Assembly: GCF_900143005.1 (NCBI RefSeq)
Contig: NZ_FRCS01000010.1
Location: 186,001-250,000 of the forward strand
From: Cryptosporangium aurantiacum
GTDB lineage: Bacteria; Actinomycetota; Actinomycetes; Mycobacteriales; Cryptosporangiaceae
DNA: 64,000 nucleotides
Reading direction: 5' to 3'
Both the position numbers and the translations under genes were made by a program. Position 1 is the stretch's first letter; each line of letters opens with the position of its first letter. This document shows positions 32,639 to 53,469 of the stretch, one piece after another. The notes under the pieces are model-generated. The model ran no database searches. It worked only from the letters and a program-made list of their open reading frames with translations, and was not told where the DNA came from.

Positions 32639-33214
32639 TCAGTAGCCCTGGGTGTTCAGGACCCAGGTCCCGCGGCAGCGCCAGTCGTTGCTGCCCCACT
32701 TGTTCCAGCTCTGGTGCCAACCCTTGTAACCGCGCTTCGTGAAGTCGCAGTCGTAGGAGTCCCACCACCCCTTGTGCACACCACGCTTGCCGGCCGACTT
32801 GCAGGCCTTGTAGCTGCGGTGGAAGCCCTTCACCCGGTCGTGCTTCCACTTGTGCTTGCCGTGGAAGTGACCCTTGTCCTTGTCCCAGCCGCGGTCGCAC
32901 TCGTCGTCGCACTCGTCGTGCTTCTTGCGGTGGTCCTTCTTGTGCCAGTCACCCTTCGACCGGCCGGACGAGTAGTCCTTCTTCTTATCCGCGGAAGCCC
33001 ACTTCACCTCGGTCTTCTCGACCTTCGTGTACGACCCGGCGACCGCGTTCGACGACTCGTGGTCCGAACCCCAGTCGTTCTGGTAGCTACCACCGGAGTA
33101 CTCGTCACCGGTGTGCGTCGCCGCGGACGCCGGCGCGGCGAGACCCAGCGTGGCGCCGCTGGCGAGCGCCAGCCCAGCGACCGAAAGAGCCGTCCGTCGT
33201 GCCTTGCTTCCCAT
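32639..33214 (-). CDS. Secreted Lys/His/Trp-rich protein
   Basis: A 191-residue exported protein. The signal peptide is MGSKARRTALSVAGLALASG through about APASAA (cleavage near residue 31). The mature part is extremely charged: blocks such as KKDHRKKHDECDDECDRGWD and GHFHGKHKWKHDRVKGFHR, then repeated Trp-rich KGWWDSYDCDF, KGWHQSWNKWG and DWRCRG. Six cysteines could form three disulfides or bind metal. ATG 33214 has GAGGAGG ahead. No known family recognised; binding of metal, polysaccharide or cell wall is possible. It stands alone, between hairpins. Confidence 0.7.
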   Translation of the reverse strand: MGSKARRTALSVAGLALASGATLGLAAPASAATHTGDEYSGGSYQNDWGSDHESSNAVAGSYTKVEKTEVKWASADKKKDYSSGRSKGDWHKKDHRKKHDECDDECDRGWDKDKGHFHGKHKWKHDRVKGFHRSYKACKSAGKRGVHKGWWDSYDCDFTKRGYKGWHQSWNKWGSNDWRCRGTWVLNTQGY

Positions 33215-33523
33215 TTCCTGCCTCCTCTGATGTTTCAGGCGGAATGAGCAAAGCAGACGCATCGGTGTTTATTCGGCCCCGATTGAGCCTTACGCCAATC
33301 ACTATTTGTGCAATTAAGGAGTTTTGCCCAGCAGAGTGAGTCGGGGAGATCCGTTGGGAGACGTGTCGTTCCGCCGTTCGGTCGGTTTCGCCCAGATGCC
33401 CGTTACCTAACCCGAAGAACAGCTGCGAGGGTTGTGTCGCTTTCGCCGTTCTCTTCGATCCACTCCGGACACGAAAAGACGGACCGGAAAGTCCTCCGGT
33501 CCGTCCGTGTTCTCGGGTGAGTT
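33215..33523. other. Non-coding region with terminator and promoter of secreted-protein gene
   Basis: No gene is supported in this ~310 bp. The left part should hold the promoter of the secreted Lys/His-rich protein gene; it is less GC-rich, with short A/T runs. The right end holds a terminator for the leftward resolvase-like genes (listed separately). Confidence 0.5.
33478..33505 (-). terminator. Intrinsic terminator of the resolvase-like gene pair
   Basis: An 11-bp perfect stem GACGGACCGGA/TCCGGTCCGTC with a 6-nt loop. Read on the minus strand it is followed by TTTT, a standard Rho-independent form. It lies 18 bp after the stop of the leftward gene ending at 33524. Confidence 0.85.
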
Positions 33524-34096
33524 CTAGTCCGCCGCCGGGTCGATGACCTGGATGGTTCCGCCCGCCGAGGTCGCGTTGTGGCACAGCGCCCGGCGCAGGA
33601 CGTCGTTGGGCGCCAGGTGTGTCCACGTGGGCACCACGATCGCCGACGCCTCGCGCAGGTACAGGTGACGCAGGCAGGCGGAGAACCCCGGCCGCCGGGC
33701 GTCGTCGTCGGTGACGTCGTCGCGGTGTACCCGCAGCAGCGTCAGCCCGCGCTCCCTGGCGTACTGCGCGATCGCCTCGACCAGCGGCGCGGTCGCATCG
33801 TCGTCGACGTCATCGGTGCCTCTGGCCAACGCCGCGAGCGGGTCCGTCGGGGTCACCACCGCTCGGAGGTACCCGACGACCACGCGGGAGACGTCGCTGC
33901 GCGGCCGGCTCGGTTCGCGTTCGATGGTCGGCGACGGCATGTCGAGTGCGGCGAGCAGGCGGACGGCGTCCGCATGCTCTTCGGGGGCGGAGACCGACAG
34001 CCGGGGCCAAGCGGTCGGAGTGGTGGGTGCGGCCGGAAGCGTGACGGGCGCGGCGAAGCCGTGCCGTCCCGCGCCACCCGATGCGGCCGGGGTCAT
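33524..34096 (-). CDS. Resolvase-fold protein without catalytic serine (second of pair)
   Basis: A 190-residue protein. The C-terminal ~130 residues resemble the serine-recombinase N-terminal domain: VVVGYLRAVVTP at the strand where recombinases have YxRVS, LVEAIAQYARERGLTLLRVHRD, RRPGFSACLRHL, SAIVVPTWTHLAP and GGTIQVID. The catalytic Ser is absent (AVVTP in place of VSS), and no DNA-binding tail follows. Recombination is thus unlikely. ATG 34096 with AAGGAG ahead is preferred; GTG 34123 is a longer alternative. It follows the similar 118-residue gene with a short gap, so both probably share an mRNA. Confidence 0.6.
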   Translation of the reverse strand: MTPAASGGAGRHGFAAPVTLPAAPTTPTAWPRLSVSAPEEHADAVRLLAALDMPSPTIEREPSRPRSDVSRVVVGYLRAVVTPTDPLAALARGTDDVDDDATAPLVEAIAQYARERGLTLLRVHRDDVTDDDARRPGFSACLRHLYLREASAIVVPTWTHLAPNDVLRRALCHNATSAGGTIQVIDPAAD

Positions 34097-34133
34097 GCTC
34101 GTCGGTACTCCTTGCGCCGTCACGGTCGACCGG

Positions 34134-34490
34134 TCACGTTCTGGACTGCGCCGAGGCGAGCGCTTCGTCGGCTACGAACAGGCGACCGCCGGCGTCTTCC
34201 ACGAGATAGGCCAGCGAGTCGCGGATGTCCGGATGCCAGGACAGGTGCGCGACGTCGAGCAGCAGGACCCCGTCGGCGCGGCGTTCACGCACGTCAGCCA
34301 AGGCCGCCGCGAATCCACTTCGTTCACCGCGCCTACCCGTGATCGCACCGGGCCCGATCGCGTCCGCATAGACGTGTCGTAGTTCCAAGGCGCGGTCTTC
34401 GGCGTAGCGTCGAAGTGCTTCGAGTTCGGCGTGCGAATCCACGGCGCCTGCACGCGGCGGTCGCAAGTAACCGACAACGGTCGTTGCCAT
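34134..34490 (-). CDS. Resolvase-fold protein without catalytic serine (first of pair)
   Basis: A 118-residue protein with the resolvase N-terminal-domain pattern: TTVVGYLRPPRAG, ELEALRRYAEDRALELRHVY, RSGFAAALADVRERRADGVL, DVAHLSWHP and GGRLFVADE. The usual active-site Ser is missing (PPRAG), and there is no DNA-binding domain. It lies upstream of the second, related protein and is divergent from an XRE/DUF397 pair. Role unknown; a regulatory or scaffold use of the fold is likely. ATG 34490 is the start that matches the first strand. Confidence 0.6.
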   Translation of the reverse strand: MATTVVGYLRPPRAGAVDSHAELEALRRYAEDRALELRHVYADAIGPGAITGRRGERSGFAAALADVRERRADGVLLLDVAHLSWHPDIRDSLAYLVEDAGGRLFVADEALASAQSRT

Positions 34491-34703
34491 CTGGGTCTCT
34501 CCGGGTCTCGGGTGCTGGGCACGCGTCACCGCACGGAAAGACCAATGCGGTGACACCTCGGCGGTCCCGGTAGACGCCGTGGGTCACATGCTGACGACCT
34601 CTGTCTCGATAGTGCATCTGTGTCCCCTGCAATGCAACTCCCACTTCGGCGTGGTGCGATTTCGAGGCTGGTGTGGCGGTTCGCGTGGTGCCACACTCGC
34701 GCC

Positions 34704-35546
34704 GTGTCAGGAAGCCCCACGGTTCGTCGCCGTCGTATCGCCAGAGAACTGCGCCACCTCCGCGAGAAGGCGGGGATGACGCTCGAGCAAGCCGCCCGTC
34801 AGCTCGACATGTCACGCAGCAATCTGTCCCGCATAGAGACCGCTCAGATCGGGATCAAGCCCAGGGATGTCCGGGCCGCACTGGCCCTCTACGGCATCAC
34901 CGGGGACGATTCCGAACCGCTCATCGAGATCGCACGTGGCGCACAGCAGCGCGGCTGGTGGCAGAACTATGCCGACGTGCTGCCGGCCTGGTTCGAGTTC
35001 TACATCGGCCTGGAGGCCGAGGCGGTTCGAATCAGCACCTACGAGGCGGAGGCCGTGCCCGGCCTCCTGCAGACCGAGGCCTATGCCCGCGCGGCCTTCC
35101 GGGCCACCGCGGGGGACGACGACGTCGACCGCAAAGTCGCGGCCCGGCTGCGTCGCCAGGATCTACTCCGAGGAGATTCCCCGGCTGAATTGTCCGTCGT
35201 TCTGAACGAAGCAGTTTTGTTGCGGCCGTTCGGTGGCGTAACGGTGATGCGCGAGCAACTTGAGTACATAGCTCAGCTAGCGGCGCTACCCAACGTAACC
35301 GTTCAAGTGTTGCCATTCTCGGTCGGCGGGCACCCCGCGATGACGACACCCTATGTCATCCTTAGTTTCCCGGATCCTGACGACAATTCTGTCGTCTACC
35401 TGGATAACCTCACTGTGGGTATCGCTCTGGAGGAACCGGACCAGGTGGATGGGTATACCCTCGTGCACCAAAAGCTGTGTGGCATAGCGCTCACGCCGGA
35501 GCAATCCGTACTCCGGATCCGCGAAGCCGCTGGTGACATGTCGTAG
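34704..35546 (+). CDS. XRE family regulator with DUF5753 domain
   Basis: A 280-residue regulator of the large actinomycete XRE-DUF5753 type. The helix-turn-helix is IARELRHLREKAGMTLEQAA, then RQLDMSRSNLSRIETAQIG. The C-terminal DUF5753 has VRISTYEAEAVPGLLQTEAYARA, LNEAVLLRPFGG and PNVTVQVLPFSVGGHPAM. GTG 34704 was chosen because VSGSPTVRRRRIARELRHLR is the usual beginning. It is followed 25 bp later by the small DUF397 gene, its standard partner, and is divergent from the resolvase-fold pair. Confidence 0.88.
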   Translation: MSGSPTVRRRRIARELRHLREKAGMTLEQAARQLDMSRSNLSRIETAQIGIKPRDVRAALALYGITGDDSEPLIEIARGAQQRGWWQNYADVLPAWFEFYIGLEAEAVRISTYEAEAVPGLLQTEAYARAAFRATAGDDDVDRKVAARLRRQDLLRGDSPAELSVVLNEAVLLRPFGGVTVMREQLEYIAQLAALPNVTVQVLPFSVGGHPAMTTPYVILSFPDPDDNSVVYLDNLTVGIALEEPDQVDGYTLVHQKLCGIALTPEQSVLRIREAAGDMS

Positions 35547-35571
35547 TCGTGGCAGGAAAGCTGAGGCAGGT

Positions 35572-35778
35572 ATGGCAAACATCGATCTCACCTACGCTCC
35601 GTGGCGTAAGAGCAGTGCGAGCACGGGTAACGGCAACTGCGTCGAGGTTGCGCTGATGGAGTCTGTCGTTGCAGTGCGTGACACGAAAGACCGGGGTGGC
35701 CCAGCATTGGTGCTGCCCGCGGCGGGTTGGCAGTCGTTCATCGTCGGTGCCAAGTCCGGAGAGTTCGACCTGATCTGA
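35572..35778 (+). CDS. DUF397 domain-containing protein
   Basis: A 68-residue DUF397 protein: APWRKSSASTGNGNCVEVAL, VAVRDTKDRGGPALVLPAAGW and FIVGAKSGEFD, the complete family pattern. DUF397 genes almost always follow XRE-DUF5753 genes, as here; the pair behaves like a regulator with its small partner. ATG 35572 is the conserved start, with AGGCAGG ahead. Confidence 0.9.
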   Translation: MANIDLTYAPWRKSSASTGNGNCVEVALMESVVAVRDTKDRGGPALVLPAAGWQSFIVGAKSGEFDLI

Positions 35779-35925
35779 AACGCACGACCCACCACCTGGG
35801 CTCCCCGCTCGCGGAACCGCGTCCGGTCGGCAGGTTGCGGCCGGACTCCGCGGCGGGGTGGGACGGAATGAACGGACTGGTCGGCCAGCCGGGTAGCGCT
35901 GGTCGGACCGGATCGCCGGTCGCCT

Positions 35926-36675
35926 CTACCCGGCAGGTCGAATCACCAGGTCGCGGAGTACCGCGTCGGTGCCCCACGCGCTGAATCGCACCGCACCGCA
36001 CCCGCCGGCCAGTGGAACGCCGCCGTCGGGCAGTGGCTGGCCGTCGAACCACACCCGGGCGCGTGCACCGGCCAGGTCGACCCGGATGCGCGGGTTCTCC
36101 TCGGCGCTGGCCAGCACCGCGAGCGTGGTGCCGCGCGCGTCCGCCACCCGCACCTGCTCATCGACGCGGGAGTACTCGATCGACAGCGCTGCCGGAACCG
36201 TCGGGTCGGAACCGGCCCGGATGCCGAGGAGCAGGCCCGAGGCCGGCGGCTCCACCGCCGCGACCTCTGTCGCAGCCCGCGTCGTGCTCTGCCGCACGTC
36301 CTTCACGTGAACGCTGGCCTCCAGCCGACCGTCGCAGAACTCGGCGTCCGAGAGGTATGCGCCGCCGGTTGCCGCCGGTGCGTTCACGGTCAGCCCGCTC
36401 TGCGGATCACCGCTCACCGTCGCGTCGCCGAACGCCTGAGCGGTCGTCGGACGCAATGCCGCCGGGGTCGGCCGGTCGGCGGAGCGCGGCTTGGTCAGGT
36501 CGTGTGCCCGTAAACCGACCATCAGCGCGAGCAGCAGGACGATGCCCGCGACGATCGCGCCCATGCGCGCCGGGGCGCCCGGACGAGTGCCACGCAGGCT
36601 GAGCGCGACGAGGATCCCGACTACCACGACGACCATCGCCACGGTGGCCTGATCGGACCTGCTCAAGGACTCCAC
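35926..36675 (-). CDS. Membrane-anchored protein with jelly-roll-like outer domain
   Basis: A 249-residue protein. Two N-terminal membrane helices at about residues 10-27 and 38-57 (VAMVVVVVGILVALSL; MGAIVAGIVLLLALMVGL) precede a ~180-residue domain. The latter has strands such as AYLSDAEFCDGRLEASVHVKD, PAALSIEYSRVDEQVRVAD and RIRVDLAGARARVWFDGQPL, a pattern of concanavalin-like sandwich folds. No catalytic residues can be named. It stands alone between the DUF397 gene and the MarR gene. Function unknown. Confidence 0.65.
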   Translation of the reverse strand: MESLSRSDQATVAMVVVVVGILVALSLRGTRPGAPARMGAIVAGIVLLLALMVGLRAHDLTKPRSADRPTPAALRPTTAQAFGDATVSGDPQSGLTVNAPAATGGAYLSDAEFCDGRLEASVHVKDVRQSTTRAATEVAAVEPPASGLLLGIRAGSDPTVPAALSIEYSRVDEQVRVADARGTTLAVLASAEENPRIRVDLAGARARVWFDGQPLPDGGVPLAGGCGAVRFSAWGTDAVLRDLVIRPAG

Positions 36676-52503: not shown

Positions 52504-52629
52504 TACGCCAGAAGACCCCTGGGACGAGCATCGACCACTGAGGACGGTGCGGTCGCCAAAGGCGGTGGTCGGTGTCCGGGCGCGAGGGCCCCGACCGTTA
52601 CCCTCGTGCCAGGAGGGAAGACCGGTTAC

Positions 52630-53469
52630 GTGGCCAAACCCCATGACGCTCTGCGCGTTTTCGGACTGCAATTGCGCCAGGTGCGCGAGGACGCCGGCCT
52701 GACCGGGCGGGCGGTCGCCGACCGTACCGGCTGGCCGCACTCCAAGGTGTCCAAGTTGGAGCGTGGACAGCAGACAGCTACCCAGGCCGATGTGGACGCC
52801 TGGGTGCAGGCGACCGGCGCGGACGCCGAGGACGCCCAGCGGCTGCAGGTGGCGCTTCGGCAGGCCCGGATGGAGTACACCGAGTGGCGCCAACGGCTGT
52901 CGACCGGGACGCGCGCACGTCAGCTCCAGCGCCGCGAGGCGGAGGCTGAGGCGACGTTGATCCGGGCGTTCGAGCCCGGCGTCTTTCCCGGGCTGCTGCA
53001 AACCGCGGACTACGCGCGGGCGGTATTCCAGGGCCTCGTCAGCACCTATCAAGTCGCGGACGACGTCGAGGAGGGCGTGCGAGCCCGGCTCAGTAGGCAG
53101 GACCTGCTGCATCAACCGGGTCGGCGGTACCACTTCATTCTGGCCGAGGCGGCGTTCTACTGCCGGATGGCCGATTCGGCCGTGATGCGGGCGCAACTCG
53201 AACGCTTACTCACGGTGGCTCGGCTACCGGCCGTCGACCTGGCGGTGGTGCCGCTCGGTGCGCGGTGGCCGGTCGGTCCGCTGAACGGGTTCTGGATCTT
53301 CGATCGGGATTACGCGTTGGTGGAGACGCTCGGCGCGGAGTTGACTCTGCGTGAGCCCGCTGAGATCGCGGTCTACGAGCGGATCTTCGACGTGTTCTCT
53401 CGCCTGGCCGTGCGTGGGGCGGCAGCTACCGACCTGATTCTCGGCGCCACCCGCCGGTACGTAGGGTGA
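52630..53469 (+). CDS. XRE family regulator with DUF5753 domain
   Basis: A 279-residue regulator. The helix-turn-helix is FGLQLRQVREDAGLTGRAVA, then DRTGWPHSKVSKLERGQQTA. DUF5753 shows EATLIRAFEPGVFPGLLQTADYARA, ILAEAAFYCRMADSAVMRAQL and PAVDLAVVPLGARWPVGP. GTG 52630 has AGGAGGGAAG ahead at about 10 nt. The 77-residue gene lies just upstream and is its likely partner; no DUF397 gene follows, unlike the other XRE gene at 34.7 kb. Confidence 0.87.
   Translation: MAKPHDALRVFGLQLRQVREDAGLTGRAVADRTGWPHSKVSKLERGQQTATQADVDAWVQATGADAEDAQRLQVALRQARMEYTEWRQRLSTGTRARQLQRREAEAEATLIRAFEPGVFPGLLQTADYARAVFQGLVSTYQVADDVEEGVRARLSRQDLLHQPGRRYHFILAEAAFYCRMADSAVMRAQLERLLTVARLPAVDLAVVPLGARWPVGPLNGFWIFDRDYALVETLGAELTLREPAEIAVYERIFDVFSRLAVRGAAATDLILGATRRYVG

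Follow-up and report, generated by a model that had tools for sequence, protein, structure and literature searches.

A whiJ-bldB-abaA-type cassette with a predicted resolvase-fold component in Cryptosporangium aurantiacum

In the accessible part of PMC4255298, the whiJ clusters of Streptomyces are described as comprising three kinds of protein, namely WhiJ, a DUF397/SCO4542-like protein and the antisigma-like AbaA. An AbaA-type HATPase has been published near 5 of 10 S. venezuelae cassettes and hence does not strictly define them, and binding of the regulator to direct repeats in the divergent intergenic region has been published for WhiJ9 only. According to the portion of PMC10294661 consulted, BldB does not bind DNA, and both the targets of WhiJ/BldB paralogues and the mode of action of BldB in streptomycete development are described as unresolved. 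The same portion reports for IosA (vnz16670) a pI of 10.3 and a predicted structure unlike any solved one, which suggests that IosA lies outside the protein family treated here. DUF397-Xre has been proposed on genomic grounds as a type II toxin-antitoxin pair (PMC2701414, in part), whereas the streptomycete pairs are described, in the sections available, as regulators of antibiotic production and differentiation (PMC6262351, PMC10364602).

The locus considered here lies in a 64-kb stretch (64,000 nucleotides; the window) of the 9.58-Mb genome of C. aurantiacum. It is a cassette of the whiJ-bldB-abaA type with a resolvase-fold part for which no description was found in the literature searched. 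The two minus-strand genes and the divergent XRE-DUF5753/DUF397 pair had been correctly placed and characterized in a preliminary description (Table 1). Both members of a WhiJ-BldB cassette are present: the XRE protein scores 66.4 bits with HTH_31 and 187.3 bits with DUF5753 in Pfam, and 287.9 bits with the NCBIfam model of the Sco1979 family, under its cut-off of 350, and the small adjacent protein scores 73.1 bits with Pfam DUF397. The two resolvase-fold genes, termed pseudo-resolvases below, are separated by 10 bp, and their proposed arrangement as a tandem with its own terminator agrees with a hairpin of 13 pairs, a loop of 4 and a T-rich tail, found by consensus scan only; the scan gave 5 terminator-like sites within 33250-36000 against 1.1 expected. 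Near this operon, at 32639-33262 (-), is a small Lys/Trp/Asp-rich protein with a start that by eye resembles a signal peptide. Elsewhere in the window a second XRE-DUF5753-like ORF occurs at 52504-53466 (+; 229 bits with a local XRE profile), and no DUF397 or pseudo-resolvase match was found in the 64 kb besides the locus itself.

Table 1. Features of the pseudo-resolvase locus (window positions)
Feature	Positions	Strand	Basis or remark
Terminator-like hairpin, 3' of the pseudo-resolvase operon	33477-33506	-	Consensus scan only
Pseudo-resolvase 1, 199 aa, GTG start, operon gene 2	33524-34123	-	Resolvase fold
Pseudo-resolvase 2, 118 aa, ATG start, operon gene 1	34134-34490	-	Resolvase fold
Divergent intergenic region, 213 bp	34491-34703	none	Extent if the regulator starts at GTG 34704
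WhiJ-like regulator, XRE helix-turn-helix + DUF5753	34704-35546	+	Pfam; start probably GTG 34704
BldB-like DUF397 protein, 68 aa, ATG start	35572-35778	+	Pfam DUF397

A serine-recombinase fold had been suspected in both minus-strand products, and structure prediction bears this out. The 118-aa protein matches Pfam Resolvase at 24.9 bits, above the cut-off of 23.3, and the 199-aa protein reaches 17.1 bits, below that cut-off, its fold being seen from the model. An 11-sequence profile that took in both proteins matched the solved chains 3lhk (MJ0014), 2mhc (TnpX), 3bvp (TP901-1 integrase) and 6dgc (ISC1926 TnpA) at E 4e-5 to 5e-4. AlphaFold2 models built from eight-row alignments had a mean pLDDT of 78.8 for the 118-aa and 70.4 for the 199-aa protein; the latter is confident from about residue 81, save for an insert at 91-110, and its roughly 80 N-terminal residues, modelled with low confidence, are probably disordered. 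Foldseek returned 7 matches at E <=0.001 for the shorter and 17 for the longer model, all of them serine recombinases or MJ0014. With VIA the best match of both was the catalytic domain of ISC1926 TnpA, 6dgc (Z 13.1, rmsd 3.5, 99 aligned for the 118-aa model; Z 14.6, rmsd 1.7, 101 aligned for the 199-aa model), gamma-delta resolvase 2rsl followed with Z 9.9 and 12.2, respectively, and the first rows other than recombinases were HflX proteins with Z 8.7 and 9.0. Because profile, Foldseek and VIA matches agree, the resolvase fold of both proteins is well supported as a prediction.

The catalytic residues have been lost to different degrees. In an alignment that also included recombinases found by these searches, the two proteins have P and V at the Ser10 position, H in place of Arg68 in both, and W and P in place of Arg71, and both retain Arg8. 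The absence of the active-site serine, as first proposed, thus stands for the two window proteins but not for the whole family, whose 81 rows comprise 70 with another residue for Ser10, 5 with a gap and 6 that retain it. Among 94 domain rows, 13 carry Arg68, and these have Ser10 in 12 cases (one gap) and Arg71 in 13; in the Arg68 column of the other 81 there are 70 His, 7 Gln and 4 further entries, and these rows keep Arg71 in 12, Arg8 in 44 and the R45 equivalent in 44. The division into pseudo-resolvases and true recombinases was made on R68, so its absence from 81 of 81 rows holds by definition and that column proves nothing alone; the evidence for the split is that the same division also separates tail, neighbourhood and tree position. 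Since the serine is still present in some rows, the change from Arg68 to His is, on the alignment, a better signature of the family than the loss of Ser10.

An enzyme of another chemistry housed in the resolvase fold could make use of this His, which prevails while Ser10, D67 and R71 drift. The family profile has an invariant Gly7 and nearly invariant Tyr8 and Gly101, and besides this Tyr, which adjoins the Gly of the first strand, no polar residue accompanies the His, which is itself not invariant (the Gln rows) and may be structural; such an enzyme is therefore regarded as decidedly improbable.

In resolvases, the long dimerisation helix would start right after the catalytic core. In the window proteins the domain is followed by 10 and 4 residues, compared with 109 or more in the 13 recombinase rows, in keeping with the earlier statement that neither has a DNA-binding tail. 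A homologue set combining intact Ser with a recombinase tail did not emerge, the homologues being without Arg68 and tail, but the six rows with Ser10 qualify this result. These data bear on the idea that the proteins no longer cut DNA and still bind it, or form hetero-oligomers with active serine recombinases in a dominant-negative or architectural role. The fold is kept, Arg8 is found in both proteins and the R45 equivalent in more than half of the family rows, and a long serine-recombinase gene with a 555-codon frame is present elsewhere in the window's genome. Nevertheless, the usual DNA-binding domain is missing, because both proteins end shortly after the catalytic core, and the genomic linkage is to regulators and HATPases; a residual DNA function is accordingly considered unlikely.

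In an unrooted tree the recombinases occupy one side of a branch with support 91/83, and of 200 bootstrap trees 92% recover it. The dead family may thus have arisen once, which a tree of 103 columns, with no more than 13 recombinases from the profile search, allows and does not prove. The family rows come from six taxonomic families, that of Frankia among them, with L106 set aside. L106 and L144, which have long branches and no HL motif, were left out of the neighbourhood count and are among the 81 tree rows; L145 and L099 were dropped under a score or length filter, and L114 had no family match. One pseudo-resolvase, at L087:5858-6832 (+), has a C-terminal part matching the NCBIfam Frankia-40 domain (41.4 bits, cut-off 40).

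Descent from recombinases is indicated by the rows with Ser10 and by L113, which, among five residues checked, lacks D67 and R68 alone. It could then be supposed that the genes are recently decayed recombinases or mobile-element remnants without function, and one copy has indeed decayed: L109 (G002), one of three genus relatives, has between its 199-aa and XRE genes only a truncated remnant of the 118-aa gene, with the start-codon region still recognisable, and the 118-aa gene is therefore dispensable in that genome. The 199-aa, XRE and DUF397 genes are present in all three relatives. Within the genus, three genomes gave dN/dS values of 0.12-0.20 for the 118-aa gene, and six pairs from four genomes gave 0.22-0.41 for the 199-aa gene; the range for the XRE gene was 0.06-0.12. 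The two window proteins are under purifying selection in the genus and are not decaying as a class. Recent decay was rejected on dN/dS values well under 1 and on the family-wide pattern, in which R68 has been lost, mostly to His, across six taxonomic families; linkage far above background (see below) also speaks against it, and the probability left to it is very small.

The neighbourhood was compared in two sets of regions. The first held 68 regions around first-profile matches and genus mates, plus the window, mostly with E below about 1e-7 in the class search, to which a few weaker matches, genus mates and other matches were added. The second held 20 regions from the taxonomic family of G148, which is also represented in the first set, and the two are thus not phylogenetically independent. 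The HMMs used to score neighbours (HTH, DUF397, XRE, HATPase) took genes of the window and a single HATPase as their starting point and were built up on the first set, tandem copies were counted once per cassette, and expected counts were taken from the density elsewhere in the regions. The suggestion that the XRE and DUF397 genes form one module with the resolvase folds is borne out beyond the genus: 28 of 56 first-set cassettes (0.68 expected) and 16 of 18 second-set cassettes (0.23 expected) have a gene for an XRE helix-turn-helix protein divergently upstream. An AbaA/RsbW-type HATPase stands beside the pseudo-resolvase on the same strand, or is fused to it, in 21/56 (0.22 expected) and 14/18 (0.20 expected). 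None of the 13 true recombinases of the first set, one of them near a contig end with little upstream sequence, had XRE, DUF397 or HATPase beside it.

The regulator itself varies. XRE-DUF5753 is the divergent gene in 11 of 56 and 3 of 18 cassettes, and DUF397 accompanies a divergent XRE, as in the window, in 10 of 56 and 3 of 18. Most second-set regulators are XRE proteins without DUF5753 and DUF397, both being found in 3/18, and WhiJ-BldB is hence just one partner among several. Not all HTH calls are strong: for 10 divergent regulators Pfam placed HTH above cut-off in 7, below it in 2 and nowhere in 1 (L111, counted as HTH nonetheless). With the HMMs used, 17 of the 56 first-set cassettes have neither a divergent XRE nor a HATPase, and some of these by eye have other regulators, zinc-ribbon HTH or GntR-like. 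GntR-like regulators, likewise identified by eye, replace XRE in the slot divergent from the pseudo-resolvase in L053, L095 and L100. The genome to which the window belongs yielded two cassettes with three members in all, each cassette with a divergent XRE. Tandem pseudo-resolvases recur in two genomes of the genus and, within the G148 family, at the loci L128 and L129, both divergent from an XRE.

Fusions to the HATPase were found in 4 of 56 first-set and 0 of 18 second-set cassettes of the region scan. HATPase_c_2 is above the Pfam cut-off in all four fusion candidates compared with Pfam, in which the Resolvase model is above cut-off in 2, below it in 1 and absent from 1; in NCBIfam, RsbA-type anti-sigma matches below cut-off occur in two of three fusions, one of which also matches SpoIIAB weakly. 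From their fusion and adjacency taken together, a shared pathway is likely for pseudo-resolvase and HATPase. The HMM scan found no HATPase in the 64-kb window, and the fusion argument thus reaches the window only through its relatives.

The 213-bp intergenic region is the expected place of the regulator's operator and of both promoters. It is 96, 89 and 89% identical to that of three genus mates, compared with 74-82% for the pseudo-resolvase genes where intact, and it exceeds the XRE gene (92, 87 and 88% overall; 82, 68 and 68% at third codon positions) by a small margin. This conservation fits a regulatory region under constraint. Across four genomes of the genus, 30-nt steps through window positions 34545-34649 are 87-97% invariant, which is above the flanking pseudo-resolvase genes and about level with the 5' end of the XRE gene. 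Near the XRE start, a weak triple repeat of TGGTG[CT] with a spacing of 17 bp, at 34652, 34669 and 34686, is a candidate operator that offers a hint at most. Repeats as good were seen in 3 of 100 shuffles for the window, 11 for L107 and 1 for L108; in seven other WhiJ-type intergenic regions no consistent repeat was found (L141 2/100, the remaining six 5 to 82/100), and the candidate was set aside as too weak to claim and not common to other loci. A structured RNA was also rejected: an Rfam search of the region gave no match near a gathering score, and the plus strand folds no better than shuffles (z 0.92), the minus strand having z -1.62 with 10 of 200 shuffles as good.

Matches are patchily distributed. 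Some match, true recombinases included, was found in 54 of 394 genomes of the class (11 candidates scored per genome), and in the family of G148 a match at E 1e-6 occurs in 38 of 101 genomes, a figure that again takes in long frames, probably recombinases. In the phylum search, matches from outside the class were all weak (E 2.6e-11 to 8e-7, frames of at least 167 codons, 12 candidates scored per genome), which leave room for family members there. A first scan of genome contigs found no relative, near records possibly lying outside that scan. Among plasmid records, the 199-aa protein had no match and L072 (G159-type) had nine Streptomyces matches, each annotated as hypothetical protein, from which the taxonomic family of Streptomyces probably also has members. 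A known defence system was rejected, as PADLOC gave no match for either pseudo-resolvase, the DUF397 protein or a Frankia member; the XRE protein had three weak HTH-type matches there. A single weak PHROGs match, to an integrase (E 0.018), was obtained with the 118-aa protein.

Such patchiness, together with the small size of the genes and the published DUF397-Xre proposal (PMC2701414, in part), could suggest a type II toxin-antitoxin-like module with an XRE antitoxin, a DUF397 toxin and the pseudo-resolvases as additional genes for antitoxin, toxin or immunity. However, a regulator and its target have just this arrangement, divergent and with conserved sequence between them, the HATPase fusions point to signalling, and the accessible accounts of the streptomycete pairs (PMC6262351, PMC10364602) speak of regulation; the toxin-antitoxin reading is given only a low probability.

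The reading preferred here, with reasonable though far from full confidence, is that the dead serine-recombinase domains are the divergent output of a WhiJ-BldB cassette and act by protein binding, elsewhere probably on an AbaA/RsbW-like HATPase; the resolvase fold would thus have been reused for regulation or binding. They are taken as outputs because they occupy the place of such a regulated output, and their control by WhiJ is suggested by analogy with the published WhiJ9-iosA work. Most likely, the XRE protein would bind the shared 213-bp region and set the expression of the pseudo-resolvase operon, and the DUF397 protein would most likely modulate the XRE regulator. The pseudo-resolvase, judging from linkage and fusion only, would act by binding another protein, in many other genomes probably the adjacent or fused HATPase, and the result would be a circuit of the sigma-factor or partner-switching type that governs development or secondary metabolism. 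More broadly, pseudo-resolvases are probably an extra effector or adaptor component of whiJ-bldB-abaA-type cassettes. It is a more tentative proposal that the tailless recombinase fold with Arg68 changed to His is a dedicated adaptor of anti-sigma-like AbaA ATPases and a fourth, hitherto overlooked kind of protein in the whiJ-bldB-abaA developmental network. If true, the adaptor reading would give one answer to what these cassettes actually switch, a recurrent extra protein that is sometimes fused to an AbaA-type ATPase would be a concrete handle on WhiJ/BldB, and a DNA-cutting fold would have been turned into a probable signalling part.

Compared with known systems, the two proteins share with the PF00239 serine recombinases (ISC1926 TnpA, IS607-like; TP901-1 integrase; gamma-delta resolvase) the fold of the catalytic domain, R8 and, in the family, often R45, and differ from them in having neither Ser10, R68, R71 nor a tail, and in having regulators as neighbours. 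RsbW/SpoIIAB/RsbA-type anti-sigma HATPases are fusion or adjacency partners of family members elsewhere, with no match in the window. The putative DUF397-Xre toxin-antitoxin systems (PMC2701414) likewise have XRE and DUF397 genes, and here a divergent pseudo-resolvase operon is added. The words 'resolvase' and 'recombinase' are absent from the available portions of PMC4255298 and PMC10294661, and no recognised description of a resolvase-like cassette member was found among the matches listed in the literature search, in which PMC8262856 has 'resolvase-like domain' once and subscription journals were mostly outside the scope. The closest likeness is to the WhiJ-BldB-AbaA paralogue cassettes of Streptomyces, including iosA-whiJ9-bldB9 (PMC10294661; PMC4255298), in which an XRE regulator is followed by a DUF397 protein, a further gene lies beside or divergent from the regulator and, as often in the wider family studied here, a HATPase of AbaA's domain type may be nearby; unlike those published cassettes, with WhiJ, the DUF397/SCO4542-like protein, AbaA and IosA, the present locus has a resolvase-fold component.
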